NCBI GenBank assembly: GCA_026394215.1 | Contig: JAPKYR010000195.1 | Span: 1-32,281 of the forward strand | DNA length: 32,281 nucleotides | Source: a bacterium | GTDB taxonomy: Bacteria; JAJVIF01; JAPKYR01 | Direction: 5' to 3' | Shown: piece by piece, positions 1,591 through 16,854 of the stretch | How positions within the stretch are numbered: position 1 is the stretch's first letter | Layout: every line of letters starts with the position of its first letter | Translations under genes and position numbers: made by a program | Notes under the pieces: model-generated | Databases searched by the model: none | Told to the model about the DNA's origin: nothing | Seen by the model: only the letters and a program-made list of their open reading frames with translations

Positions 1591-2295
1591 CTACAGTTTC
1601 GATTCAAGCAATTGCATTCTATATCCTACTCCCGGCTCGGTAATTATAAGTTGCGGACGATTGGGGTCGAGCTCCAGTTTCTGGCGAAGGTGCCCGATAT
1701 AGACGCGAAGATACTGCACATCCTGAATCGACCCGAGCCCCCAGACTTCATGAAGAATGAAGTGATGAGTCAGGACCTTTCCCGCATGACGGATGAAGAG
1801 TTTAAGCAGGTTATACTCAGTAGAGGTAAGGTGAATCTGCCGGTCACCGACAAAAACAGTTCGAAGTGAAAGATCTACTGTTAGAGCTCCGGATTTAAAA
1901 ATCGGCTCGACCTCTTCGGGTGTTGTATGGCGGAAGCAGACTCGAAGCCGCGCGAGCAATTCCGGCACACTGAAAGGTTTTGTCAGATAATCATCCGCCC
2001 CGTGATCAAGCGCTTCAACTATACTTTCCTCGTCGTTCACAACAGACAGGATCATTACAGGCCGCGTATACCATTCCCTCAGCTTTTTCAGAACCTCTAT
2101 TCCCTGCATGCCGGGAAGATTCATATCGAGAATTATCAATTCTGGTGATCGCGACGCCGCCAGCAATAAACCCTCTTCGCCGGTTGACGCGTCGATAATG
2201 TCATAATCGTGCGCGAGAAGCGTCATCCGAAGAAGCCTGCGAATCTGCGGCTCGTCATCGATCACGAGGATCAGCGGTTTTCCGGGTTCACTCAT
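1591..2295 (-). CDS. kdpE: KdpE, response regulator of the Kdp potassium-uptake operon
   Basis: This is an OmpR-family response regulator of 234 residues. The receiver domain (about 7-120) has the acidic pair D13-D14, the phospho-acceptor D57 in LIILDMNLPG and the conserved K106 in YLTKPFS. The C-terminal winged-helix DNA-binding domain (about 135-232) ends in QLIITEPGVGYRM. KdpE activates kdp transcription when phosphorylated by KdpD under potassium limitation. I chose the ATG at 2295 because MSEPGKPLILVIDDE is the family N-terminus; the longer open frame upstream is kdpD sequence. The ATG lies inside the end of kdpD (AATGAGTGA, 8-bp overlap), implying translational coupling. The gene is last in the operon. 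Confidence 0.95.
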   Translation of the reverse strand: MSEPGKPLILVIDDEPQIRRLLRMTLLAHDYDIIDASTGEEGLLLAASRSPELIILDMNLPGMQGIEVLKKLREWYTRPVMILSVVNDEESIVEALDHGADDYLTKPFSVPELLARLRVCFRHTTPEEVEPIFKSGALTVDLSLRTVFVGDRQIHLTSTEYNLLKLFIRHAGKVLTHHFILHEVWGLGSIQDVQYLRVYIGHLRQKLELDPNRPQLIITEPGVGYRMQLLESKL

Positions 2296-4966
2296 TTTTA
2301 TGAACCTCCAATGGCAAACGGATGATAAATTCAGCGCCGCCTTCAGGGTGGTTCCGGGCTTCAAGCTTTCCTTCGTGAGTTTCAATCCACCCTCGGGCTA
2401 TTGCAAGCCCAAGACCTGAACCGCCTGCTTTGAGAGGATCCGCTCTCCAGAATTTCTCAAGGACAATTTCCGGATTATCGGGAGGTAAACCGGGACCATT
2501 ATCGCGAATGTTGATAATCAGAAATTCTTTTTCTAACGACACAGTTATTTCTACCGGAGTACCGGGCGGCGTGTGCACAGCAGCGTTATGAACGATATTT
2601 ATCACTGCCTGCTCTATAAGTAGATAATCGATACTCACAAGCGGAATCTGGTCAGGGATTCTTAAAGTAAGAGGATGATCCGACAATTCCTTATCCAGAT
2701 ATCGCAGTGCGGTGCTGATCAGATCACGGACATCGCCCGGTTCCTTGTGAACAGGCAACACGCCCGATTCGAGCCGCGTCATATCCAGAAGGTTCCTGAC
2801 AATTCGAGACAAGCGTCGTGAACCGGCTTGAATTTCTTCGGCAAGATCATGAACGGATTTGTCGTCCCGCGCGACTACGGGATCGAGGAGAGCGCTCGCC
2901 GAGCCTTCGATAGCGGAAAGAGGCGTTTTTAACTCATGCGATACGGAACTCAGCATGGTTTTGTAAAGCCTTTCAGATTCCTCGATCAGCATTGTATGCC
3001 TTGCGAGCGCATTGAGCTGTTCGCGCTCGATGCCCATGGCAAGCTGCCTCGCAAAGGTCTCGGCCAGAGCAGTGAGTTCCGGGGTATCGGGACGTTTTCG
3101 ACGAGGTTTCAGACCCATAACCCCGACTGTGCCGTGCGATGCAACAAGCGGGAGATATAAAGCCTTTGCGGATGGAAGCGTGTCGGTAAAAAGTCCGGCG
3201 GACCGGCTGTGTAACGCGGTCCATTCCGCGACACTCATTTCCTTTTCATCCAGAATAAGAGTGTTCCCTTCGTGAGGCAATAGAACCTTCGATGGTTGTT
3301 TCACAAGAATTGCAATATCCGCTTCAAGAAGCGTACCGATGTTTTCAATAGCGGTGTCGAGAACATCATGCATGCTGATCGCCGATGATATTTCCCTTGT
3401 AAGGTGATAGAGGGCGGTCATGCGACGTTCGCGGATACGAAGATGTTTCTCGTTGACGCGAAGCCTCGCCGTCAGATGGCCGACTATTCCGGCAACCGCC
3501 AGAAACATGCCGAACATCATATAGTCTTCCGGTGCAGTAATCGCGAATGTATAAAATGGTGGTATGAAAAGAAAGTTCCATGCGAGACCGCATAAGAGCG
3601 CGCTTAATAAAACGGCGCCGCGGCTTATGTAAAGCCCGAGAATAACCACGCCAAGAAGGAATACCAGCCCGACGGCGTGATAGGCGATGATCGGATTCAG
3701 TAAATAACCAAGTATTCCGATAAGAACCGGCGCTGCTATGGCAATAATAAAATCTGTAAATAAAACGGGTTTTTGAGATACGTTGATCGATCCAACCGGC
3801 GCACTGACCTGGTCGGAAGATTCTCCCGAAACGATGTAGACATCTATATTGCCGCTTTCTTTCAATAATCGCTGTACGACCGATCCGCCATGGCGTAAAT
3901 TATGGAAAAATCCCCGTCGCGACTTGCCAACAATCAACTGAGTTACCCGATTCTCCCGCGCAAGCCTGATAAGGCCCCTGACAGGATCATCATCGACAGT
4001 CGTCACTACTTCTCCGCCCAGCTCTTCGACAAGAGATAGATTCTTCCTGAGAAGGCGATTCTCATCCTCAGTGAGAGTCCTATCGGATTCAACATATGTG
4101 GCGAACCACTCCGCATCCAGCCCTGACGCCATCCGCCGCGTCCAGCGGATCAGAGTTTCCGAATAAGGGCTTGCGTAAACGGCGACCATCAGACGGTGGC
4201 GTGTTTTCCATGCGTCTGTGATGTGATGAACTTGTTGGTAGTCATGTATATCGCGGCTTACACGGTCCGCGACAAGGCGAAGGGAGAGCTCCCGAAGGGC
4301 TGACAGATTTCCCGGGCGGAAAAAATGCTGCATCGCCCGACCGGCGCGCTCTTCGCTGTAGACTTTTCCTTCCTTGAGCCTTTTAATCAATTCTTCGGGG
4401 GCAAGGTCGATAAGAATAACCTCGTCCGCCATATCGATAATCAAATCGGGAATGGTTTCGGTAACTGTCACACTCGTTATTTCGTGAACAGTGTCCGCGA
4501 GGCTTTCCAGATGCTGGACATTGAGAGTCGTATAAACATCGATTCCCGCGTCCAGAATTTCCAGAATATCGTTCCATCGCTTCGAGTGCCGGCTTCCCGG
4601 AGCATTCGAATGCGCCGCTTCATCGATAAGGACCACCTGCGGATGCCTTTTCAATATGACATCGAGGTCCATTTCCTCGAGCGCGACGTTACGATATGGG
4701 ACAGCCCTTCGCGGGATTACTTCCAGACCTTCCATGAGCATTTCGGTTTCTTTGCGGCCATGCGTCTCGGCTAATCCCACAACAACGTCGATATCCCTCG
4801 CCTTGAGTTCATGGGCGACATTGAGCATAGCGAAAGTTTTGCCGACTCCTGCCGCCATTCCAAGAAAAACGATAAGCCGTCCTTTATCGGATTTCTCCTC
4901 TGTACGCTGAATTGCTTTCAGAAGGAGATCGGGATTGGGACGCTGGCGAAAATCAGGTTCGGTCAA
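2288..4966 (-). CDS. kdpD: KdpD, sensor histidine kinase for potassium limitation
   Basis: At 892 residues it has the usual length for full-size KdpD. The N-terminal KdpD domain has a Walker A motif at about 36-44 (GMAAGVGKT) and LIDEAAHSNAPGSRH. A universal-stress-protein-like domain follows (about 245-370). Then come four membrane helices (about 395-500; FIIAIAAPVLIGILGYLL and onward), a GAF-like segment (about 520-640), a dimerisation/H-box region (VSHELKTPLSAIEGS, near residue 676) and an ATPase domain with N (VINIVHNAAVH), G1 (DNGPGLP) and G2 (GGSGLGLAIARG) boxes. It senses K+ and turgor and phosphorylates KdpE. The start is a TTG overlapping the kdpC stop by four bases (TTGA), with GGAGCG upstream. 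Confidence 0.95.
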   Translation of the reverse strand: MTEPDFRQRPNPDLLLKAIQRTEEKSDKGRLIVFLGMAAGVGKTFAMLNVAHELKARDIDVVVGLAETHGRKETEMLMEGLEVIPRRAVPYRNVALEEMDLDVILKRHPQVVLIDEAAHSNAPGSRHSKRWNDILEILDAGIDVYTTLNVQHLESLADTVHEITSVTVTETIPDLIIDMADEVILIDLAPEELIKRLKEGKVYSEERAGRAMQHFFRPGNLSALRELSLRLVADRVSRDIHDYQQVHHITDAWKTRHRLMVAVYASPYSETLIRWTRRMASGLDAEWFATYVESDRTLTEDENRLLRKNLSLVEELGGEVVTTVDDDPVRGLIRLARENRVTQLIVGKSRRGFFHNLRHGGSVVQRLLKESGNIDVYIVSGESSDQVSAPVGSINVSQKPVLFTDFIIAIAAPVLIGILGYLLNPIIAYHAVGLVFLLGVVILGLYISRGAVLLSALLCGLAWNFLFIPPFYTFAITAPEDYMMFGMFLAVAGIVGHLTARLRVNEKHLRIRERRMTALYHLTREISSAISMHDVLDTAIENIGTLLEADIAILVKQPSKVLLPHEGNTLILDEKEMSVAEWTALHSRSAGLFTDTLPSAKALYLPLVASHGTVGVMGLKPRRKRPDTPELTALAETFARQLAMGIEREQLNALARHTMLIEESERLYKTMLSSVSHELKTPLSAIEGSASALLDPVVARDDKSVHDLAEEIQAGSRRLSRIVRNLLDMTRLESGVLPVHKEPGDVRDLISTALRYLDKELSDHPLTLRIPDQIPLVSIDYLLIEQAVINIVHNAAVHTPPGTPVEITVSLEKEFLIINIRDNGPGLPPDNPEIVLEKFWRADPLKAGGSGLGLAIARGWIETHEGKLEARNHPEGGAEFIIRLPLEVHKNE

Positions 4967-5556
4967 TGTTGATTCGCTCCTTCAAGTGGAGGTTTCCCGA
5001 ACGTATCGTCAACAGCAAGATTAAGTCTGAGCACATTTACTCTGGGAGCGCCGAAAACACCCCATTGCGGTTGCTCAATATATTGATTCACAAGTTCCCT
5101 GAGATGTGCTTTCTGTTCCGCGGATAAATTACGAGCCTGAGCCACATGGTCGATCTGAACCAAAGCGGCATCGGGACTGATATGCGGATCAAGTCCGCTG
5201 CCGGAGGCAAGAAGCAGATCAGCCGGAATTTGGCCGGAAATATAGGGAGTAAGCTCTCTCGACCGATCCTCAACAGCTTGCCTAAGAGCTTCACTTGTCG
5301 GACCCTGATTACTCGCACCGGATGGAAGGGCATTGTATTCCGATATCGATGGGCGCGGCCAGAAATATTCGGGAAGCGTGAACTTCTGTCCCGCCAGAAT
5401 CGAACCATGGATTTCCCCATCGCCACTAAGCAGGCTTCCGTTCGCCTTATCGGGGAAGGCTGTCTGAGATATGACGGTTATAACGAGCGGATATACCACG
5501 CCTGTAAGAACAGCCATGATCAGAAAAATCAAAATTCCAGATTTAAGATTTCTCAT
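4963..5556 (-). CDS. kdpC: KdpC, potassium-transporting ATPase subunit C
   Basis: This 197-aa protein has a single N-terminal membrane helix (ILIFLIMAVLTGVVYPLVI, about residues 9-27) followed by a soluble domain. Family hallmarks are GSLLSGDGEIHGS, FTLPEYFWPRPS, SGASNQGPTS, DLLLASGSGLDPHISPDAA and the C-terminal NVLRLNLAVD. KdpC assembles with KdpA and KdpB in the inner membrane and stabilises ATP binding. The ATG at 5556 has GGAG nearby and lies 15 bp after kdpB; the end overlaps kdpD by four bases, so kdpB-C-D-E are a tight unit. Confidence 0.95.
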   Translation of the reverse strand: MRNLKSGILIFLIMAVLTGVVYPLVITVISQTAFPDKANGSLLSGDGEIHGSILAGQKFTLPEYFWPRPSISEYNALPSGASNQGPTSEALRQAVEDRSRELTPYISGQIPADLLLASGSGLDPHISPDAALVQIDHVAQARNLSAEQKAHLRELVNQYIEQPQWGVFGAPRVNVLRLNLAVDDTFGKPPLEGANQH

Positions 5557-5571
5557 ATTCTTACTCCACTA

Positions 5572-7674
5572 TTATATCAATTTAAAATTGACCAGTAAGA
5601 GATCGATGAGCTTGATACCGACAAACGGTATGATAAGCCCGCCCAATCCAAAGAGAGCCAGATTTCTGCTGAGTATGACGGAAGCGCCAAGAGGCCGGTA
5701 TTTGACTCCCTTCAAAGCAAGCGGGATCAATGCAACGATTATAAGCGCGTTGAAAATTACCGCGCTCAATACAGCGCTCTGCGGGGAGTGAAGGCCCATT
5801 ACATTCAGTGCAGCGAGAGGTCCCAGTTGCCCTCCAGCGGAAGCGTAAAGGCCCGAAAACATGGCAGGCAGGATCGCGAAATATTTGGACACATCGTTTG
5901 CGATACTGAATGTGGTCAGGGCGCCTCGTGTCATGAGAAGCTGCTTGCCGGTTTCCACAACTTCGATCAATTTTGTGGGATTGCTGTCGAGGTCGACCAT
6001 ATTCCCGGCCTCGCGAGCAGCCTGCGTACCGGTGTTCATCGCGACCCCGACATCCGATTGCGCCAGCGCCGGAGCGTCGTTTGTGCCATCTCCGATCATT
6101 GCTACAAGGTGCCCTTCGGATTGCTCATCGCGAATTCGCTGAAGTTTCGTTTCTGGCGTGGCTTCCGCGATGAAGTCGTCGACTCCCGCTTCGGCCGCTA
6201 TTGAAGCTGCCGTGAGCGGATTATCGCCGGTAATCATAATGGTCTTTATTCCCATGCGCCGAAGCTCGGCAAAACGTTCCCTGATTCCGCCCTTCACGAC
6301 ATCTTTTAATACGATAAGCCCCAATACTTCGCTGCCTTCCGCCACAGCGAGCGGAGTCGCACCGCTCCTTGCCACATCGTGCGCCGTTACATTAAGCTCC
6401 AATGGAAATAATCCACCGTTGGATCGAACGTGATTCCAGATTGACTCTATTGCTCCTTTCCGGATAGTGCGCATAGTGCCGTCCCGTCCGGGCAGATCGA
6501 CACCGCTTATGCGAGTCCTTGCGGAAAATGGGATGAACCTTGTCTGAGAAGGAAGGTCGCGGCCGCGCAGTCCGTATTTGTCTTTCGCAAGAACCACTAT
6601 TGAACGGCCTTCCGGAGTTTCGTCGGGAAGAGATGCAAGTTGAGCTGCATCCGCGAGCCGGTCGATGCTTGTACCCCAGACAGGAATCAGAGAAGTCGCC
6701 ATCCGATTTCCAAGAGTGATGGTGCCGGTCTTATCCAGTAACATCACATCGATATCGCCCGCGGCTTCCACAGCTTTTCCGCTCATAGCAAGGACATTCT
6801 TCCGAAGCATCCGGTCCATACCGCTTATGCCGATGGCTGATAGAAGTCCTCCGATTGTCGTCGGGATAAGGCATACCACGAGAGAGATCAATACAGTTAG
6901 GCTGGCGAAGCTCTGGTTACCGGATGCATTTTCGCTGTATGTAGTGAATCCCTTAAGAGTGCCTACCGCGAGAAGGAAAATCGCAGTGAGGCTCAGTAAT
7001 AGCACAGACAGTGCGCGTTCATTCGGAGTCTGCTGACGTTTCGCGCCCTCGACCATCGAGATCATCCTGTCAAGAAAACTCTGGCCCGGCGTTGCCGTGA
7101 TTCCGATAGTAATTCGATCGCTTATGACTCTCGTCCCGCCGGTTACCGCAGACCGATCTCCACCGCTCTCGCGTATGACCGGCGCGGATTCTCCGGTGAT
7201 AGCCGATTCATCGACACTGGCGATCCCCTCGACTACATCTCCATCTCCCGGGATGATGTCGCCAGCCTCGCAAAGTACAAGATCCCCGATTGCAAGATCG
7301 CTTGCGGAAACTTTTTCCTCCTGTCCATTTCTGATTCGACGGGCAACCGTATCTTTTCGCATCGCCCGGAGAGTGTCGGCCTGTGCTTTGCCGCGACCCT
7401 CTGCGATTGCTTCCGCGAAATTCGCGAACAGGACGGTAAACCAGAGCCAGAGCATTATCTGAATATTGAACTTGAAATCGGAATATTGCGACCCGGCGAT
7501 TTCTACAATTACCACGATGGTCAGAATGATTGCGCAGATAAACACAACAAGCATGACGGGATTTTTTACCTGAATCCGGGGGTCGAGCTTTCTGAATGAA
7601 TCCGATATCGCGCGCCGGACAATCTGCGGATCGAAAAGGTTTGTCTTTTTATTTTGCGTTGTCATTTTGCTCAT
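5572..7674 (-). CDS. kdpB: KdpB, P-type ATPase catalytic subunit of the potassium pump
   Basis: This 700-aa class IA P-type ATPase hydrolyses ATP to drive K+ uptake through KdpA. The phosphorylation motif DKTGT has its aspartate near residue 314. The actuator TGES is at about 160-163, the ion-path motif is [12 protein letters not shown] (271-282), and the hinge contains [10 protein letters not shown] and [16 protein letters not shown]. Membrane helices are at about 40-60, 72-90, 225-245, 258-282 and near the C-terminus. Every catalytic motif looks intact, in contrast with the damaged kdpA upstream. The ATG at 7674 is 37 bp past the kdpA stop; a second in-frame ATG at 7665 is an alternative start. 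Confidence 0.96.
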
Positions 7675-7711
7675 CTCGTTTTCAATTGCTGACTTGATAT
7701 CGGCGCTGCAA

Positions 7712-9275
7712 CTAAAGTGTGCGTCCTCCGATCATCAGAAAGTGCTCAATAATCGGCCCAAGCGTGAGAGCCGGGAAGAATGTGAGAGCCCCGACAATGA
7801 CGATCACAGAAATCAGGAGAATTACAAACAAACTGCTTTCAGTCGGAAATGTACCGGTAGAAGGCGGAGTGTATTTTTTTCGCCCGAGGCTGTCTGAAAG
7901 CGCCAGGACAGGGATGATGACGCCGAATCGTCCGAGCAGCATGGCAATTGATGTAAGGATGGTGAAGTAAGGTGTCGAAGCATTCAGCCCCGCGAAAGCG
8001 CTGCCGTTATTGTTCGCAGCGGATGTAAATGCGTAAAGCACCTGGCTCAATCCGTGGGGACCCTTGTTCGAAAGACCAGCTAATCCACCCGGCACGACGA
8101 GAGAGATCGAGGATAGGATGAGAACAACCGCGCATGGAAGCAGTACACCGATAACCGCGAAAAAGACATCCCTCGTTTCAATTTTTTTACCAAGATATTC
8201 CGGCGTTCGCCCTACCATCAATCCCGCAATGAATACTGTCAATATGGCAAATAATACAATCCCATAGACTCCCGAACCAACCCCGCCAAAAACGACTTCT
8301 CCAAGCATCATATTGAATATCGCGACGAGTCCCGCAAGTGGAGAGAGGCTGTCATGCATCGCGTTTACGGAACCGTTGGATGCAGCAGTTGTCAATACGC
8401 TCCACAATGCGCTCGGGAATATCCCGAATCGGACCTCCTTCCCCTCCATGAAAGGCAGCCCGCCAATAGCGGGGTTTACATGGAACTCCGACCACAGCGA
8501 AATCCCGATTCCGGCGAATAGAATTATGAACATGGCCGACAGAAGCATGATTCCATGCAACCGTCTGTTCACCAGTATTCCAAATGAATAAACGAGTGCC
8601 GACGGGATAATAAGTATAGATAAATATTCAATAAAATTGCTGAATGGGGTCGGGTTCTCGAATGGATGCGCGCTGTTGACTCCGAAAAATCCTCCTCCGT
8701 TTGTACCGAGTTGTTTTATCGCTACCTGCGATGCTGCCGGACCCATCGGGAGAATCTGGCTGCCGCCTTCAAGTGTCTTCGCATCGATATAATGAGAGAA
8801 ATTCTGTACTACGCCCTGGCTGACAAGTATAACAGCGACGATTATGGATATGGGAAGGAGAATGTAGAGTATGGAGCACACCAGGTCCACCCAGAAATTT
8901 CCGAGACCCGAACTCTGCCTTCCTGTGATACCTCGCGCAAGAGCCGCCATCACGGCGATCCCGGTCGCGGCGCTCAGGAAATTCTGGACGTTCAGACCAA
9001 GAGGTTGAGTCAGATCACTCAACGTGGTTTCGCCTGGATATGCCTGCCAGTTTGTATTGGTCAAGAACGCAGCATGCATATTCTTTCCAGTTCATATCCC
9101 TATCGGTATCCACACCGGCGAAACGGTAGATGCCTCGTTCGACCGGCTTAAGGAAGGAGAGGACAGGCACCGTGTCCCCTCTCAGGACGCGCGCGTAAAG
9201 CTCTCCGAGAAGCGGAGTTAACCCGATGAGTAGAACCAGAAACAAGCAGAATTCAATCCACGCACTTGATGTCAT
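7712..9275 (-). pseudogene. kdpA: KdpA, potassium channel-like subunit, broken by an internal deletion and frameshift
   Basis: The first 67 codons (from ATG 9275, with AAGGAG upstream) encode the normal KdpA N-terminus through MNWKEYA. Near 9079 the sequence jumps, in another frame, to FLTNTNWQAYPGETTL, the first selectivity-filter loop. In E. coli KdpA about 45 residues, a membrane helix and a periplasmic stretch, separate those points, so roughly 130-135 bases are missing and the frame is shifted. Read straight, the first frame ends at 9015 after 86 residues. The downstream part (9079-7712) is intact, with filter loops TNGGGF, TTAASNGS and SAANNNGSAFAGL and the correct C-terminus. It is either a recent inactivating deletion or an assembly error. 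No kdpF-like peptide precedes it. Confidence 0.88.
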
Positions 9276-13626: not shown

Positions 13627-13654
13627 TTGCCCTATCACTGAATTCTGCTATAAT
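13627..13654 (+). promoter_or_regulatory. Predicted sigma-70 promoter of the magnesium-transport operon
   Basis: TTGCCC at 13627-13632 and a perfect TATAAT at 13649-13654 are separated by 16 bases. Transcription would start near 13661, giving a leader of about 60 bases before the first small frame, which includes the GGAAATTTCC palindrome near 13679. Confidence 0.6.
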
Positions 13655-13720
13655 GCCCGCGTTAGATAGAAGTTCCCCGGAAATTTCCTGGTTTAAGTAA
13701 TCATATTACAGGAGAGCCCA

Positions 13721-13858
13721 ATGGAGGACTCTGGTTCTAGCCAGCGTACGAACTCGACATCCGAGGGTCCGGACATATCGGACGACCCTCCTTCGATGAT
13801 AGGCTTTGATATCAGGATGGCTGCGGTGGTGAATTCCGCTTCAAAAGCTTTAGAATAA
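13721..13858 (+). CDS. Leader peptide candidate 1 (45 aa) with acidic/proline stretch
   Basis: This short frame is preceded by ACAGGAGAGCCCA, a strong ribosome binding site with good spacing to its ATG. It begins MEDSGSSQRTN and contains EGPDISDDPPS at residues 15-25. Runs mixing Asp/Glu with Pro are known to destabilise translating ribosomes when magnesium is low, and in enterobacteria such codons in mgtL control mgtA. Codons 15-24 also lie on a stem-loop (GAGGGTC at 13763-13769 pairing with GACCCTC at 13784-13790). Codons 35-39 can pair with the segment just after the stop codon (see 13825-13916). No homologue is recognised. The role as a sensor is inferred from composition, position and the pairings. 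Confidence 0.6.
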   Translation: MEDSGSSQRTNSTSEGPDISDDPPSMIGFDIRMAAVVNSASKALE

Positions 13859-13916
13859 GCATCGAGATTCACCTCCAGCCGTCGCGAAAAGCCGATGGAC
13901 TAAAGCGAGGTGAATC
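13825..13916 (+). promoter_or_regulatory. Mutually exclusive hairpins controlling a ribosome binding site (attenuator-like)
   Basis: Three segments compete. A is 13825-13835 (GGTGGTGAATT, inside leader peptide 1), B is 13866-13876 (GATTCACCTCC, just past its stop) and C is 13907-13916 (GAGGTGAATC, directly before the next ATG). B pairs with C over 10 perfect base pairs, hiding the GAGG ribosome binding site; an inner stem CCGTCG/CGATGG extends it. B also pairs with A at 10 of 11 positions, one of them a G-U. A ribosome covering A leaves B free to pair with C, closing the next site; a ribosome that stops earlier lets A take B, opening it. The pairings are visible; the regulation is inferred. 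Confidence 0.6.
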
Positions 13917-14075
13917 ATGAAGACTCAGCTTCTTCTGCAATTTACTCCTCTTTTGCGTTTTATTTTTCCGATACTGATTACACCGGTGAAACTGGTCGCA
14001 TGTCCGATTGCGCGAGTTGCCCGTTTCTCGAACCGGACATGCGAGATGCTTTGCCCAAGTGAGGAATACGCCTGA
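13917..14075 (+). CDS. Leader peptide candidate 2 (52 aa), probably coupled to the transporter
   Basis: The ATG follows GAGGTGAATC at ideal spacing. The peptide begins MKTQLLLQFTPLLRFIFPIL, which is hydrophobic with scattered basic residues, and ends with three cysteines in a polar tail (ACPIARVARF, CEMLCPSEEYA). Its TGA (14073-14075) is one base from the transporter ATG (14077), so ribosomes finishing it could restart on the transporter. Its ribosome binding site is the one sequestered by the B-C hairpin. It could be a true small membrane protein or only a coupling device; nothing in it matches a known family. Confidence 0.5.
   Translation: MKTQLLLQFTPLLRFIFPILITPVKLVACPIARVARFSNRTCEMLCPSEEYA
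13996..14044 (+). promoter_or_regulatory. Second leader hairpin, 11-bp perfect stem inside leader frame 2
   Basis: TCGCATGTCCG (13996-14006) pairs perfectly with CGGACATGCGA (14034-14044), with an inner CGAG/CTCG pairing. It ends 16 bases before a GAGG (14061-14064) that could be the transporter's own ribosome binding site. It may block independent initiation on the transporter unless ribosomes translate frame 2. Confidence 0.5.
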
Positions 14076-14076
14076 A

Positions 14077-15360
14077 ATGACTGTTCACATGAGTTTTTTC
14101 GACAGGCTGTTTTATGGCTTCCGGCGATCAGCGAAGACAATGAGAATATTTCTGCTGATTTCCGGTCCCGGCATCATTGTGATGCTCGCCGACAATGACG
14201 CAGGCGGGATCACCACCTATGCAGCTACCGGATCGAAGTACGGATACGGACTCATCTGGTTCCTGGTTCTTCTGCTACCAGTAGCGTATTACGTGCAGGA
14301 GATGACAGTGAGGTTAGGTGCGGTGACAAAGCATGGCCATGCAGAGGCTATATTCTATGCATTCGGACCATTCTGGGGATGGTTTTCGCTGATAGACCTT
14401 ATTCTGGTTGACTGGCTGACTCTAGTTACAGAATTCATCGGAATGACCGCCGCTCTGAGCATTTTCCATGTGCCGCCCGTTTTGACAGTAATCATAGTCA
14501 TAATAATCATGGCGATAATGGTCATACAGGGACGCTACTGGACATGGGAGAAAATCGCGTTCCTCTTTTGTGCTCTGAACCTGATTTACATACCTTGCGC
14601 TTTTATTGTCCACCCTTCAGTTTCAGACATTCTTAACCAGGGCATCATTCCTCATTTCCCCGGGGGATTCAATAACGAAATCTTCTTTTATCTAATGGCG
14701 AACATCGGCACAACCATTGCGCCATGGATGGTGTTTTTCCAGCAAAGCGCTGTGGTTGACAAAGGGCTCCAGGAAAAGGATATCGCCTGGGGCAAAATGG
14801 ACACTTTGATCGGCTCGACATTTACGGTTGTCGTTGCCATATTTATTGTTGTGGTGACCGGCACAGTATTGTACGGAGTCAACATTGAGAGCGCCGCGCA
14901 GGCATCTCTTAAGTTAATGGGCATTAATAAGTATGTCGGGACTTTCATGGCAATCGGATTATTCGACGCCGGATTCCTTGGCGCAATCTGCATTTCGCTG
15001 GCAAGCTCGTGGGCTTTCGGCGAGGTTTTTGGATGGGCGCATTCTCTTAATCATAAAGTCAGAGAAGCTCCCTGGTTTTATGCAACTTACCTTTTCGCAG
15101 TCGCTTCCGCGGGCGCAGTGGTGCTTATCCCTAACGCTCCGCTTGTGCTGATCACATTATTTGTTCAAGTCATAGCCGTTACTCTGCTTCCCGCAGCACT
15201 GGTATTCCTGATCCTGCTGCTCAACGATGAAAAAACGATGGGCAAGACCTACCGGAACAGTCCTTTGCAGAACATTATCTGCATTTCGATTGTGGTCGGC
15301 ATAATATTACTGTCAACACTGTACGGAGTCAGCGCGCTATTTCCTAACCTCTTCAGTTAG
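14077..15360 (+). CDS. NRAMP-family divalent metal transporter, probably magnesium-type
   Basis: This 427-aa polytopic membrane protein has 11 or so helices in the NRAMP (SLC11) fold. It aligns directly with family helix 1: GPGIIVMLADNDAGGI corresponds to the GPG...DPGN region, keeping the Asp (D41) but replacing P-G-N by A-G-G. In helix 6 the usual MPH is A215-P216-W217 (GTTIAPWMVFFQQSAVVDKG). The Met and Asn that coordinate Mn/Fe are therefore absent. NRAMP-related magnesium transporters are described as lacking those residues, and the MgtE-like gene downstream supports Mg2+. The start at 14077 is the first ATG after leader frame 2; an ATG at 14089 is an alternative. Confidence is high for the family and moderate for magnesium. 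Confidence 0.85.
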   Translation: MTVHMSFFDRLFYGFRRSAKTMRIFLLISGPGIIVMLADNDAGGITTYAATGSKYGYGLIWFLVLLLPVAYYVQEMTVRLGAVTKHGHAEAIFYAFGPFWGWFSLIDLILVDWLTLVTEFIGMTAALSIFHVPPVLTVIIVIIIMAIMVIQGRYWTWEKIAFLFCALNLIYIPCAFIVHPSVSDILNQGIIPHFPGGFNNEIFFYLMANIGTTIAPWMVFFQQSAVVDKGLQEKDIAWGKMDTLIGSTFTVVVAIFIVVVTGTVLYGVNIESAAQASLKLMGINKYVGTFMAIGLFDAGFLGAICISLASSWAFGEVFGWAHSLNHKVREAPWFYATYLFAVASAGAVVLIPNAPLVLITLFVQVIAVTLLPAALVFLILLLNDEKTMGKTYRNSPLQNIICISIVVGIILLSTLYGVSALFPNLFS

Positions 15361-15378: not shown

Positions 15379-15564
15379 ATGCTGAATAGTCTCAAACATT
15401 TTGTAACAAGTAATCTCCGCAAGGTAGAGGATATAAACCGGAAATATGCTGCGCCGCAGATACATATGAGCAAAATGGTGCGCATTTCGCTCTTATTCTT
15501 GAGGCTTTATCTGCTTTTACTTGTCGGCTTACTGGTATATAAATTCATTACTCTTATACGCTAG
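15379..15564 (+). CDS. Small single-pass membrane protein of the magnesium operon
   Basis: This 61-aa protein has a strong ribosome binding site (GTAAGGAGCCGAAC before the ATG). A polar, basic N-terminal 30 residues (LKHFVTSNLRKVEDINRKYA) precedes one membrane helix (ISLLFLRLYLLLLVGLLVYKFITLI). It sits 18 bp after the transporter and 15 bp before the MgtE-N/CBS gene, so it is almost certainly co-expressed. It could link the cytoplasmic regulatory protein to the transporter in the membrane; that is inference. No family is recognised. Confidence 0.75.
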   Translation: MLNSLKHFVTSNLRKVEDINRKYAAPQIHMSKMVRISLLFLRLYLLLLVGLLVYKFITLIR

Positions 15565-15579
15565 GGACTGGAGGATATT

Positions 15580-16854
15580 ATGGCTATTGCGCAGACAGAC
15601 AGTGTACAGGAACAGGTTAAGACTTACTTCCTGAGTGAGCTTCTCGGATCGGGAATCTTCAGCACATACGACAAGGAAAAACGGATTGGGAAGCTATCGG
15701 ATGTGACTATTCTTGAGCATGGTGCGATTCCGCACATCACGGAATTGATAATATCGCGGCCTTTCGGCGACCCGTCTCTTATTATACCGGTCGATAGGAT
15801 ATCGGAAATTTTGAGTAAAAAGATTATCGTGTCAATTGAGTCGATTTCGCAGTATGAGAGCAAGCCATCGCCTGGAGCCAAGCTGCTTGCGGACTTTGTT
15901 CTGGACAAGAAAGTAATTGACGTTGAAGGCAGGGAGATTTCGGTCGTTTACGATGTCAGAATCATACAGGTGAACGGGAAGCTGTATGTGAGTGATGTGG
16001 AAGTCAGCAAGTATGGCCTTTTCAGAAGGCTTGGCTTGAAACTGATTGCCGATCTGTTTAAGATAAAGGAGGATATTGTCTCATGGACCTTTATACAGAC
16101 TTTGCCTGAACAGATCAGCAGCTTCAAGGGCGACTTGAAGTTAACGATGATGAGGGAGAAACTTGCCGACATTCCTTCGGTAGACATGGCTGATATCATT
16201 GAAGAGCTTAACCATGAACAGAGAGAGTTGGTACTGAAGGAACTCGATCCGGAGCACGCGTCGGACACATTCGAGGAGGTCAATCCAAACGTACAGCGGG
16301 AAATTGTCTCTACACTCGACAAGCATGCAATTGCCCGGATGATAGATGAGATGACTCCAGCGCAGGCCGCTGATGTTCTTTCAGTATTATCGCATGCCGA
16401 GAAACAGAACCTCTTTAAAATCCTGAATCCCGATTTATCCGAGAAGATTCAGTCGATTCTTGGGAAACAGGACGAGAATATCATGAATTATGTCACTGAT
16501 AGGTTCGTTGCTTTTCCGCCGGATTACAGCGTGGAGACTGTAATCAATGAATACTCTGTAGCAGGCCAGGGAAAAGAGATTCGCCACTATGTCTATGCTG
16601 TCGACTCTGAGAACAAGCTCCAGGGCATAGTGGATATTGCCGAATTGCTGACCTCAGCTAGAAGCGCAATGCTTAGTGAAATAATGACAGAGAATATTGT
16701 CTTTCTTACACCACAAAATACGCTAAAAGAAGCATATACTGCATTTATACGTTACGCATTCAGAGGTATTCCTGTCATCAATGAGGAAGAGAAACTAATG
16801 GGCATTATTCTGTACAAGGATGTGATGAACCTGAAACACCGCTTCGTCTCGTGA
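15580..16854 (+). CDS. Channel-less MgtE-like protein: PRC-like domain, MgtE N domain and CBS pair
   Basis: This 424-aa soluble protein starts after GGAGGATATT. Residues about 15-175 look like a PRC-barrel-type region (GKLSDVTILEHGAIPHITEL; YDVRIIQVNGKLYVSDVEV). Residues about 195-300 form an MgtE N-terminal superhelix (VDMADIIEELNHEQRELVLK; DMADIIEEL, HASDTFEEV and QAADVLSVL repeats). Residues about 308-424 are two CBS motifs (IVDIAELLTS, MTENIVFLTPQNTLKEAYTA, RGIPVINEEEKLMGII). MgtE channels use these N and CBS domains to sense cytoplasmic Mg2+, but here the five-helix channel is missing. It is therefore probably a Mg2+-sensing partner that gates the NRAMP-type transporter encoded two genes upstream. 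Confidence 0.85.
   Translation: MAIAQTDSVQEQVKTYFLSELLGSGIFSTYDKEKRIGKLSDVTILEHGAIPHITELIISRPFGDPSLIIPVDRISEILSKKIIVSIESISQYESKPSPGAKLLADFVLDKKVIDVEGREISVVYDVRIIQVNGKLYVSDVEVSKYGLFRRLGLKLIADLFKIKEDIVSWTFIQTLPEQISSFKGDLKLTMMREKLADIPSVDMADIIEELNHEQRELVLKELDPEHASDTFEEVNPNVQREIVSTLDKHAIARMIDEMTPAQAADVLSVLSHAEKQNLFKILNPDLSEKIQSILGKQDENIMNYVTDRFVAFPPDYSVETVINEYSVAGQGKEIRHYVYAVDSENKLQGIVDIAELLTSARSAMLSEIMTENIVFLTPQNTLKEAYTAFIRYAFRGIPVINEEEKLMGIILYKDVMNLKHRFVS

Follow-up and report, generated by a model that had tools for sequence, protein, structure and literature searches.

The transporter operon and its leader

The window, i.e., the whole 32,281-nt stretch of DNA that was analyzed, carries on its forward strand an operon in which a gene for an NRAMP-related, Mg2+-type transporter (NRMT/NrmT; 14077..15360; Pfam Nramp, 1.4e-71) is followed by a gene for a 61-aa single-transmembrane protein (15379..15564; ..INRKYAAPQIHMSKMVRISLLFLRLYLLLLVGLLVYKFITLIR) and a gene for an MgtE_N and CBS protein that has no MgtE channel domain (15580..16854). 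The best PDB match of the NRAMP protein is EleNRMT (7qia, 5.4e-65; the next match is at 4e-11), which is a Mg2+ transporter of solved structure, and the NRMT signature is found in both places, i.e., DxxG in helix 1 (D41-G44) and TxxA/T in helix 6 (T212-A215). Both results bear out the preliminary description of this DNA, which had named a Mg2+-type transporter, and judged by its sequence the protein is probably specific for Mg2+. Shin et al. (2014) described nrmT-mgtE operons, part of which have an M-box, and advised caution, as a member of the wider clade from A. capsulatum rescued Mn2+ uptake, not high-affinity Mg2+ uptake, and seems to be a carrier of Mn2+ (PMC4072509). MgtE_N lies downstream of the NRAMP gene in 70/70 loci that have enough sequence, and homologues of the 61-aa protein, 40-63% identical, are present in 68 of 70 loci. 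The latter protein has no Pfam or NCBIfam match and no mention of it was found in the 2014 NrmT paper; it seems to be a conserved part of the transporter that has not been described so far. One CorA is encoded in the host genome, in which the MgtE channel domain is absent and MgtE_N is matched a second time, weakly (28.7 bits; G000:C308:4466-4630, L159). Upstream of the Mg2+-type operon, on the minus strand at 1591-9079 of the window, the translations suggest a kdpABCDE potassium-uptake cluster.

The leader is on the forward strand as well. A possible promoter (13627..13654; TTGCCC, 16-nt spacer, TATAAT, with TG ahead) stands about 65 nt upstream of the first small reading frame, and with one found against 1.1 expected it is not above chance by itself. 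That frame, ORF1 (13721..13858), has its own Shine-Dalgarno sequence (SD), AGGAG at 13710..13714, and on direct reading encodes a 45-aa leader peptide, MEDSGSSQRTNSTSEGPDISDDPPSMIGFDIRMAAVVNSASKALE, ahead of the Mg2+-type transporter gene. ORF1 is not conserved in sequence; in composition only, it joins acidic residues with proline, i.e., E2 D3 (13724-13729) and D21 D22 P23 P24 (13781..13792). The preliminary description named no ribosome-stopping residues. We consider the codons of D21 D22 P23 P24 a candidate ribosome-destabilizing or stalling motif by analogy with EPDP of MgtL (PMC11282234), with E2 D3 as a second candidate. The ORF1 stop codon (13856-13858) is followed by ORF2 (ATG at 13917; 13917..14075), a 52-aa hydrophobic reading frame whose stop ends one base ahead of the NRAMP ATG at 14077. 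ORF2 has counterparts in the same place in L113, L121/L122, and L047, without sequence similarity. Within ORF2, a perfect 10-bp inverted repeat, CGCATGTCCG...CGGACATGCG (13997..14043, direct reading), directly precedes the NRAMP SD (GAGG, 14061-14064) and may tie the translation of NRAMP to that of ORF2.

Rfam covariance models gave no family at gathering score in the window, including the mgtA leader, M-box, and yybP-ykoY models, in line with the earlier reading that no M-box or yybP-ykoY element is present; the M-box (RF00380) is absent from the whole genome too. A search of the leader for an intrinsic terminator gave none. An amino-acid attenuator was considered and rejected, as ORF1 has no run of codons for a regulated amino acid and the operon encodes a transporter.

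Two mutually exclusive helices

Three segments of the leader, whose coordinates in the preliminary description proved exact on direct reading, can pair in two ways. Segment B, an anti-SD (GAUUCACCUCC, 13866-13876, extended by AGCCGUC to 13866..13883), starts only 8 nt downstream of the ORF1 stop codon and pairs with segment C, the ORF2 SD region (GAGGUGAAUC, 13907..13916), at 10 of 10 positions, so this perfect 10-bp helix hides the ribosome binding site of ORF2. Alternatively, B pairs at 10 of 11 positions with the core of segment A (GGUGGUGAAUU, 13825-13835), which lies within ORF1. The pairings are real and larger than was noted, as the A-B core belongs to an 18-bp helix between 13816-13835 and 13866-13883, and we take the extended A (13816..13835) as the anti-sequestor; the D21 D22 P23 P24 motif ends 33 nt ahead of A. 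The sequence of A is an imperfect copy of the C arm (GATGGCTGCGGTGGTGAATT versus GATGGACTAAAGCGAGGTGAATC), as is expected of an anti-sequestor.

When folded, the B-C hairpin has -25.0 kcal/mol (mean of shuffled sequences, -11.3; 0 of 1000 shuffles as good) and the local A-B hairpin -28.0 kcal/mol, and the two are exclusive. Neither helix is easily obtained by chance. Among 4000 dinucleotide shuffles of the region upstream of a fixed C, 30 have any perfect B, and 8 (about 0.2%) have a perfect B together with an A within ORF1. A pairing with the B region as good as that of A occurs in 26 of 2000 shuffled frame-1 sequences and in 20 of 2000 synonymous recodings of this frame, and an A for the given B in 22/4000 synonymous recodings of ORF1. 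One more complement of the kind seen in the G014 group discussed below, GCUUUAG in ORF1 near 13846 with CUAAAGC at 13899-13905, is expected by chance about once per four such regions and was left unused.

Folds of the growing transcript contain A-B at ends 13884-13908 and B-C from 13914 onward, i.e., A-B can form ahead of the transcription of C. At equilibrium, the full leader prefers the closed B-C state by about 8 kcal/mol, and because of this preference the computed accessibility of the SD is the same, 0.28, whether ORF1 is free or covered in the window folds. The open state would consequently have to be set during transcription. Given the usual size of a ribosome footprint, a ribosome at the ORF1 stop codon would sit downstream of A, so that A would be covered only while nearby codons are being read. 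The leader has two alternative RNA structures, and the progress of ribosomes in ORF1 would choose between them.

Leaders at homologous loci

Homologues were collected in one scan of species genomes, which gave 80 loci, nearly all with NRAMPs 65-80% identical to that of the window. These loci (L027-L106) come from records labeled as methanogens, Chlorobi, Proteobacteria, Nitrospirae, and others, mostly from lake, peat, and drainage samples; the scatter of the NRAMP over phylum labels, archaea included, may reflect either horizontal spread or binning errors. An evident ORF1 is missing in most of the 80 loci. About a dozen have a short ORF that starts with acidic residues together with Pro/Ser/Gly: MESDPGHRC.. 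(L027), MESDPGSRC.. (L031), MKKKSEDPGSPRSIYSAVCESSI (L047), MTEDSDDSSPAQPPPVRR.. (L028), MDDGPSSHK.. (L061), MDGGPSSHC.. (L071), MDGGPCSHS.. (L085), MDSDSSGHPESK (L090), MDPASTDTSSVPDDPGESPHCC.. (L092), MESHSSEYPPLPIPFPRW (L077), and MTDSDDKPADSSAHCTAC (L100). This list was partly picked by eye, and its composition is therefore not used as a statistic. Counted by rule, acid/Pro ORFs with a strong SD (at least 6 bases) stand ahead of 5/62 NRAMP genes compared with 1/207 other genes (p = 0.003), the sole control match being the operon's own small transmembrane protein read from an upstream start; the enrichment is weaker at looser SD settings (p = 0.014 at 4 bases and 0.033 at 5).

By covariance-model match, five loci have an M-box, i.e., L027 (2531-2698), L031 (2526-2693), L058 (2434-2600), L077 (2429-2597), and L100 (2358-2539), and in all five the acid/Pro ORF lies between the M-box and the NRAMP gene. 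With an M-box and a leader ORF ahead of nrmT, one mRNA would carry two putative sensors of Mg2+ one after the other. The 40 other loci scanned, a set that left out a few Chlorobiaceae loci and L080, gave no further M-box. L077 has a second M-box (5793-5960) after mgtE_N; the gene that follows this M-box, for an outer-membrane-like protein whose N-terminus resembles a signal sequence, has no acid/Pro ORF. The whole-leader folding energies of the other ORF1-bearing loci are unremarkable (z from -2.2 to 0.1), and we therefore make no claim on their expression platforms.

Near relatives were also sought for covariation in the window's own A, B, and C. One genome of the same genus and two of the same class gave no match; homologues of the G023 class (70%) and L108/L109 (58%) showed no acid/Pro ORF1 on reading; and the upstream regions of more distant NRAMPs (34%) have neither an acid/Pro ORF1 nor an M-box.

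The leader most similar in sequence is that of L047, whose NRAMP is 73% identical to the window's and whose ORF1 contains SEDPGSP. The order there is ORF1, CGGUUCACC, GGAGGUGAACC, and then directly the ATG of a small ORF2. A, B, and C are kept, and one pair of the B-C helix, A-U in the window, is G-C in L047, a compensatory change. In a hypothesis-free search within L047, the best ORF1 partner was GUGAAUCG, which pairs with CGGUUCAC (p = 0.08 when taken alone), and this choice agrees with the A-B pairing of the window.

Recurrence in a distant group

A second set of leaders comes from the phylum of G014, whose own NRAMP is 48% identical to that of the window. In 17 leaders, ORF1 starts with M[RQ]SEPDSS, in which S-E-P-D-S-S is invariant (17/17), and codons 3-8 show synonymous variation only, with all four proline codons in use. 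Of 30 genomes, 19 have this start pattern, with a single copy in each except G413, whose two copies are both close to contig ends. Seven further homologues from one genus of this phylum (L114-L120) have a different leader before the NRAMP gene, without M[RQ]SEPDSS. By eye, the G014-phylum leaders have TTGACA...CATACT in a place comparable to that of the window promoter.

In these leaders, a hairpin covers the SD of the NRAMP gene or, in L113, L121, and L122, that of an intermediate frame. Over the 13 sequences of alignment A3, 95.5% of this hairpin is paired and 4 of its pairs are doubly changed (9 cells); 0/500 shuffles did as well. A hypothesis-free scan of ORF1 against the hairpin chose columns 153-161 with 285-293; the extended helix, 149-161 with 285-297, is 94% paired with five doubly changed pairs and was equaled in 7/500 shuffles, and slid versions of it are 21-56% paired. 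Please note that these shuffle counts are not probabilities, as the sequences are related. The ORF1 helix shares its 3' strand with the SD hairpin, and for this reason the two exclude each other. In most A3 members, searches of one sequence at a time placed the element at about nt 48-66 of ORF1 and at positions -33 to -20 relative to the start codon; L113 has an 11-bp complement of different sequence. An A2-B pairing was also tried as the general anti-sequestor of the group and was rejected, as it holds in one clade only and is 72% paired.

The two parts of this ORF1 are conserved in different ways. In L135, a frameshift alters the peptide at the anti-sequestor segment and the RNA is kept, which together with the synonymous-only codons indicates conservation at the protein level for the start and at the RNA level for the anti-sequestor. 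The ends of ORF1 vary from 24 to 52 codons; the position of the anti-sequestor is fixed. The acidic-proline motif ends 33 nt ahead of the anti-sequestor in the window, 32 nt ahead of it in L047, and 31-34 nt ahead of it in the G014 group; this spacing, known from these three cases, is compatible with the stretch that a motif-halted ribosome would leave uncovered.

In the distant group, then, both helices recur with compensatory changes, and the acidic-proline start is codon-conserved. The covariation expected for the window's A-B and B-C pairings was obtained in part: it is present in both helices of the G014 leaders, whereas the window's own B-C helix shows one such change, in L047. No close relatives of the window leader are in the searched collections, so the covariation comes from analogous leaders beyond L047. 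The earlier proposal of an attenuation-like logic acting on translation gains from both sources, i.e., the window folds and their repetition with covariation in the distant homologues.

Proposed mechanism and alternatives

We favor, with moderate confidence, a leader-peptide translation attenuator for the operon of the NRMT-type Mg2+ importer. When Mg2+ is sufficient, ribosomes would read ORF1 through A and keep A from pairing; B would then pair with C, and the ribosome binding site of ORF2 would be closed, that of the transporter too by coupling. At low Mg2+, ribosomes would drop off or stall at E2 D3 or at D21 D22 P23 P24, as on MgtL, and A would be left free, so that A-B could form once B is transcribed, C would stay open and the operon would be translated. 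Four parts of this scheme we infer, i.e., translation of ORF1, low Mg2+ as the ribosome stopper, the sense in which the switch turns ON or OFF, and the coupling through ORF2. Coding conservation of an analogous ORF1 is seen only in the G014-phylum leaders, and one feature of the window counts against the model, as its clearest acidic-Pro motif lies at residues 21-24, whereas that of MgtL is right at the beginning.

The same hairpins may serve a general translation-stress attenuator, with pausing at D-P-P or Ser/Asp when EF-P, proline, or elongation is limiting. The Pro-Pro pair within DDPPS would suit such a device, as would the reported effect of EF-P on the translation of Salmonella mgtL (PMC6460261). 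We consider it unlikely, since the regulated operon is that of a Mg2+-type transporter, an ORF of this kind follows an M-box Mg2+ riboswitch in five relatives, and the G014 peptides have a single proline beside the acidic residues.

The polarity may also be opposite to that of our attenuator, i.e., a ribosome terminating at 13856-13858 would open the foot of B-C, and completion of ORF1 would turn on ORF2 and NRAMP by coupling. This is quite improbable in spite of the mere 8 nt between the ORF1 stop and B: a ribosome on the stop codon would probably reach only the outer few B-C pairs, the ends of ORF1 in the G014 group vary from 24 to 52 codons around a fixed anti-sequestor, and A is left without a role.

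An output at the level of transcription, in which translation of the leader controls Rho-dependent termination and the SD hairpin is secondary, has in our estimate a very slim chance. It would agree with mgtL, which acts via Rho (PMC11282234), and with a leader in which no intrinsic terminator was found; the hairpin conserved over the SD in the window, L047, and G014 leaders points instead to translation. Finally, the view that B-C is an ordinary hairpin at a ribosome binding site and that A-B and ORF1 are coincidental could appeal to the single genome and to a chance for A-B given B of about 0.005-0.013, depending on the control, and it is scarcely credible given the joint chance of 0.2% and the recurrence of ORF1, hairpin, and anti-sequestor elsewhere with covariation.

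The arrangement of the favored attenuator recurs with different sequence in other lineages and probably extends a type of Mg2+ sensor known mainly from enterobacteria. In the literature we found, destabilization of the ribosome as a Mg2+ sensor so far rests on few enterobacterial leaders (mgtL, mgtQ). More broadly, and only tentatively, such destabilization by nascent peptides might be a widespread second bacterial sensor of Mg2+, used in NRMT operons of several phyla by peptides that act alone or behind an M-box. If this is true, two unrelated sensors of one ion, an aptamer and the ribosome, would be present on one mRNA. That such peptides operate in further phyla, at transporters of an unrelated family and within an RNA architecture of their own, would then suggest a general role of the ribosome as a gauge of Mg2+. 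The recurring leaders would be natural replicates for finding ribosome-destabilizing residues, and the leader peptide would offer a mark for Mg2+-type NRAMPs without a riboswitch.

Comparison with known systems

Switching of hairpins over a ribosome binding site by the position of the ribosome in a leader ORF is the principle of erm translational attenuation, in which the signal is a drug-stalled ribosome. For leader peptides at NRAMP-type transporters, alone or behind an M-box, we found no paper in a search that had most subscription journals outside it, and this silence of the literature is weak evidence of novelty.

The M-box (RF00380) shares with the window leader the nrmT-mgtE_N type of operon and an mRNA leader thought to read Mg2+ (PMC4072509), but it is an aptamer, mostly with an intrinsic terminator. 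The nearest published case is the M-box of Mycobacterium tuberculosis with the conserved uORF rv1805A, where anti-SD and anti-anti-SD elements are present and the small uORF, with a conserved, proline-containing N-terminus, lies between the M-box and the operon (PMC12810186). There, however, the aptamer sets the fold, and the uORF was reported as a regulated gene, its role being unclear in that work (PMC12810186).

The preliminary description saw no resemblance to enterobacterial mgtL, which stands for RNA homology, which is absent, but not for the peptide and the output, as the acidic-proline start is MgtL-like and the output is as in Salmonella mgtQ. In Escherichia coli mgtL, low Mg2+ leads to drop-off of the ribosome at EPDP and the mRNA conformation changes (PMC11282234). 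In both cases, the leader peptide ahead of a Mg2+ importer shows an alternation of acidic residues and proline in its early part, and the extent of reading sets (in our case, would set) the RNA fold; EPD of MgtL's EPDP is literally common to the G014-phylum peptides. The mgtL output is Rho-dependent termination (PMC11282234), whereas here a conserved hairpin closes a ribosome binding site. In Salmonella mgtQ, Asp2 and Glu5 promote release of the mgtB ribosome binding site from a stem-loop: a short acidic ORF overlaps one arm of alternative stem-loops, and the destabilized ribosome frees the ribosome binding site of a Mg2+ transporter (PMC8092293). The differences are that mgtQ is an 8-aa ORF between mgtC and mgtB in an enterobacterial operon for a P-type ATPase transporter (PMC8092293), whereas the window has a 45-aa ORF in a 5' leader, an intermediate ORF2, and an NRAMP-related transporter; sequence homology between the window leader and mgtQ was not found. 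By analogy, the device in the window fits the output of mgtQ joined to an MgtL-like peptide, without RNA homology to either.
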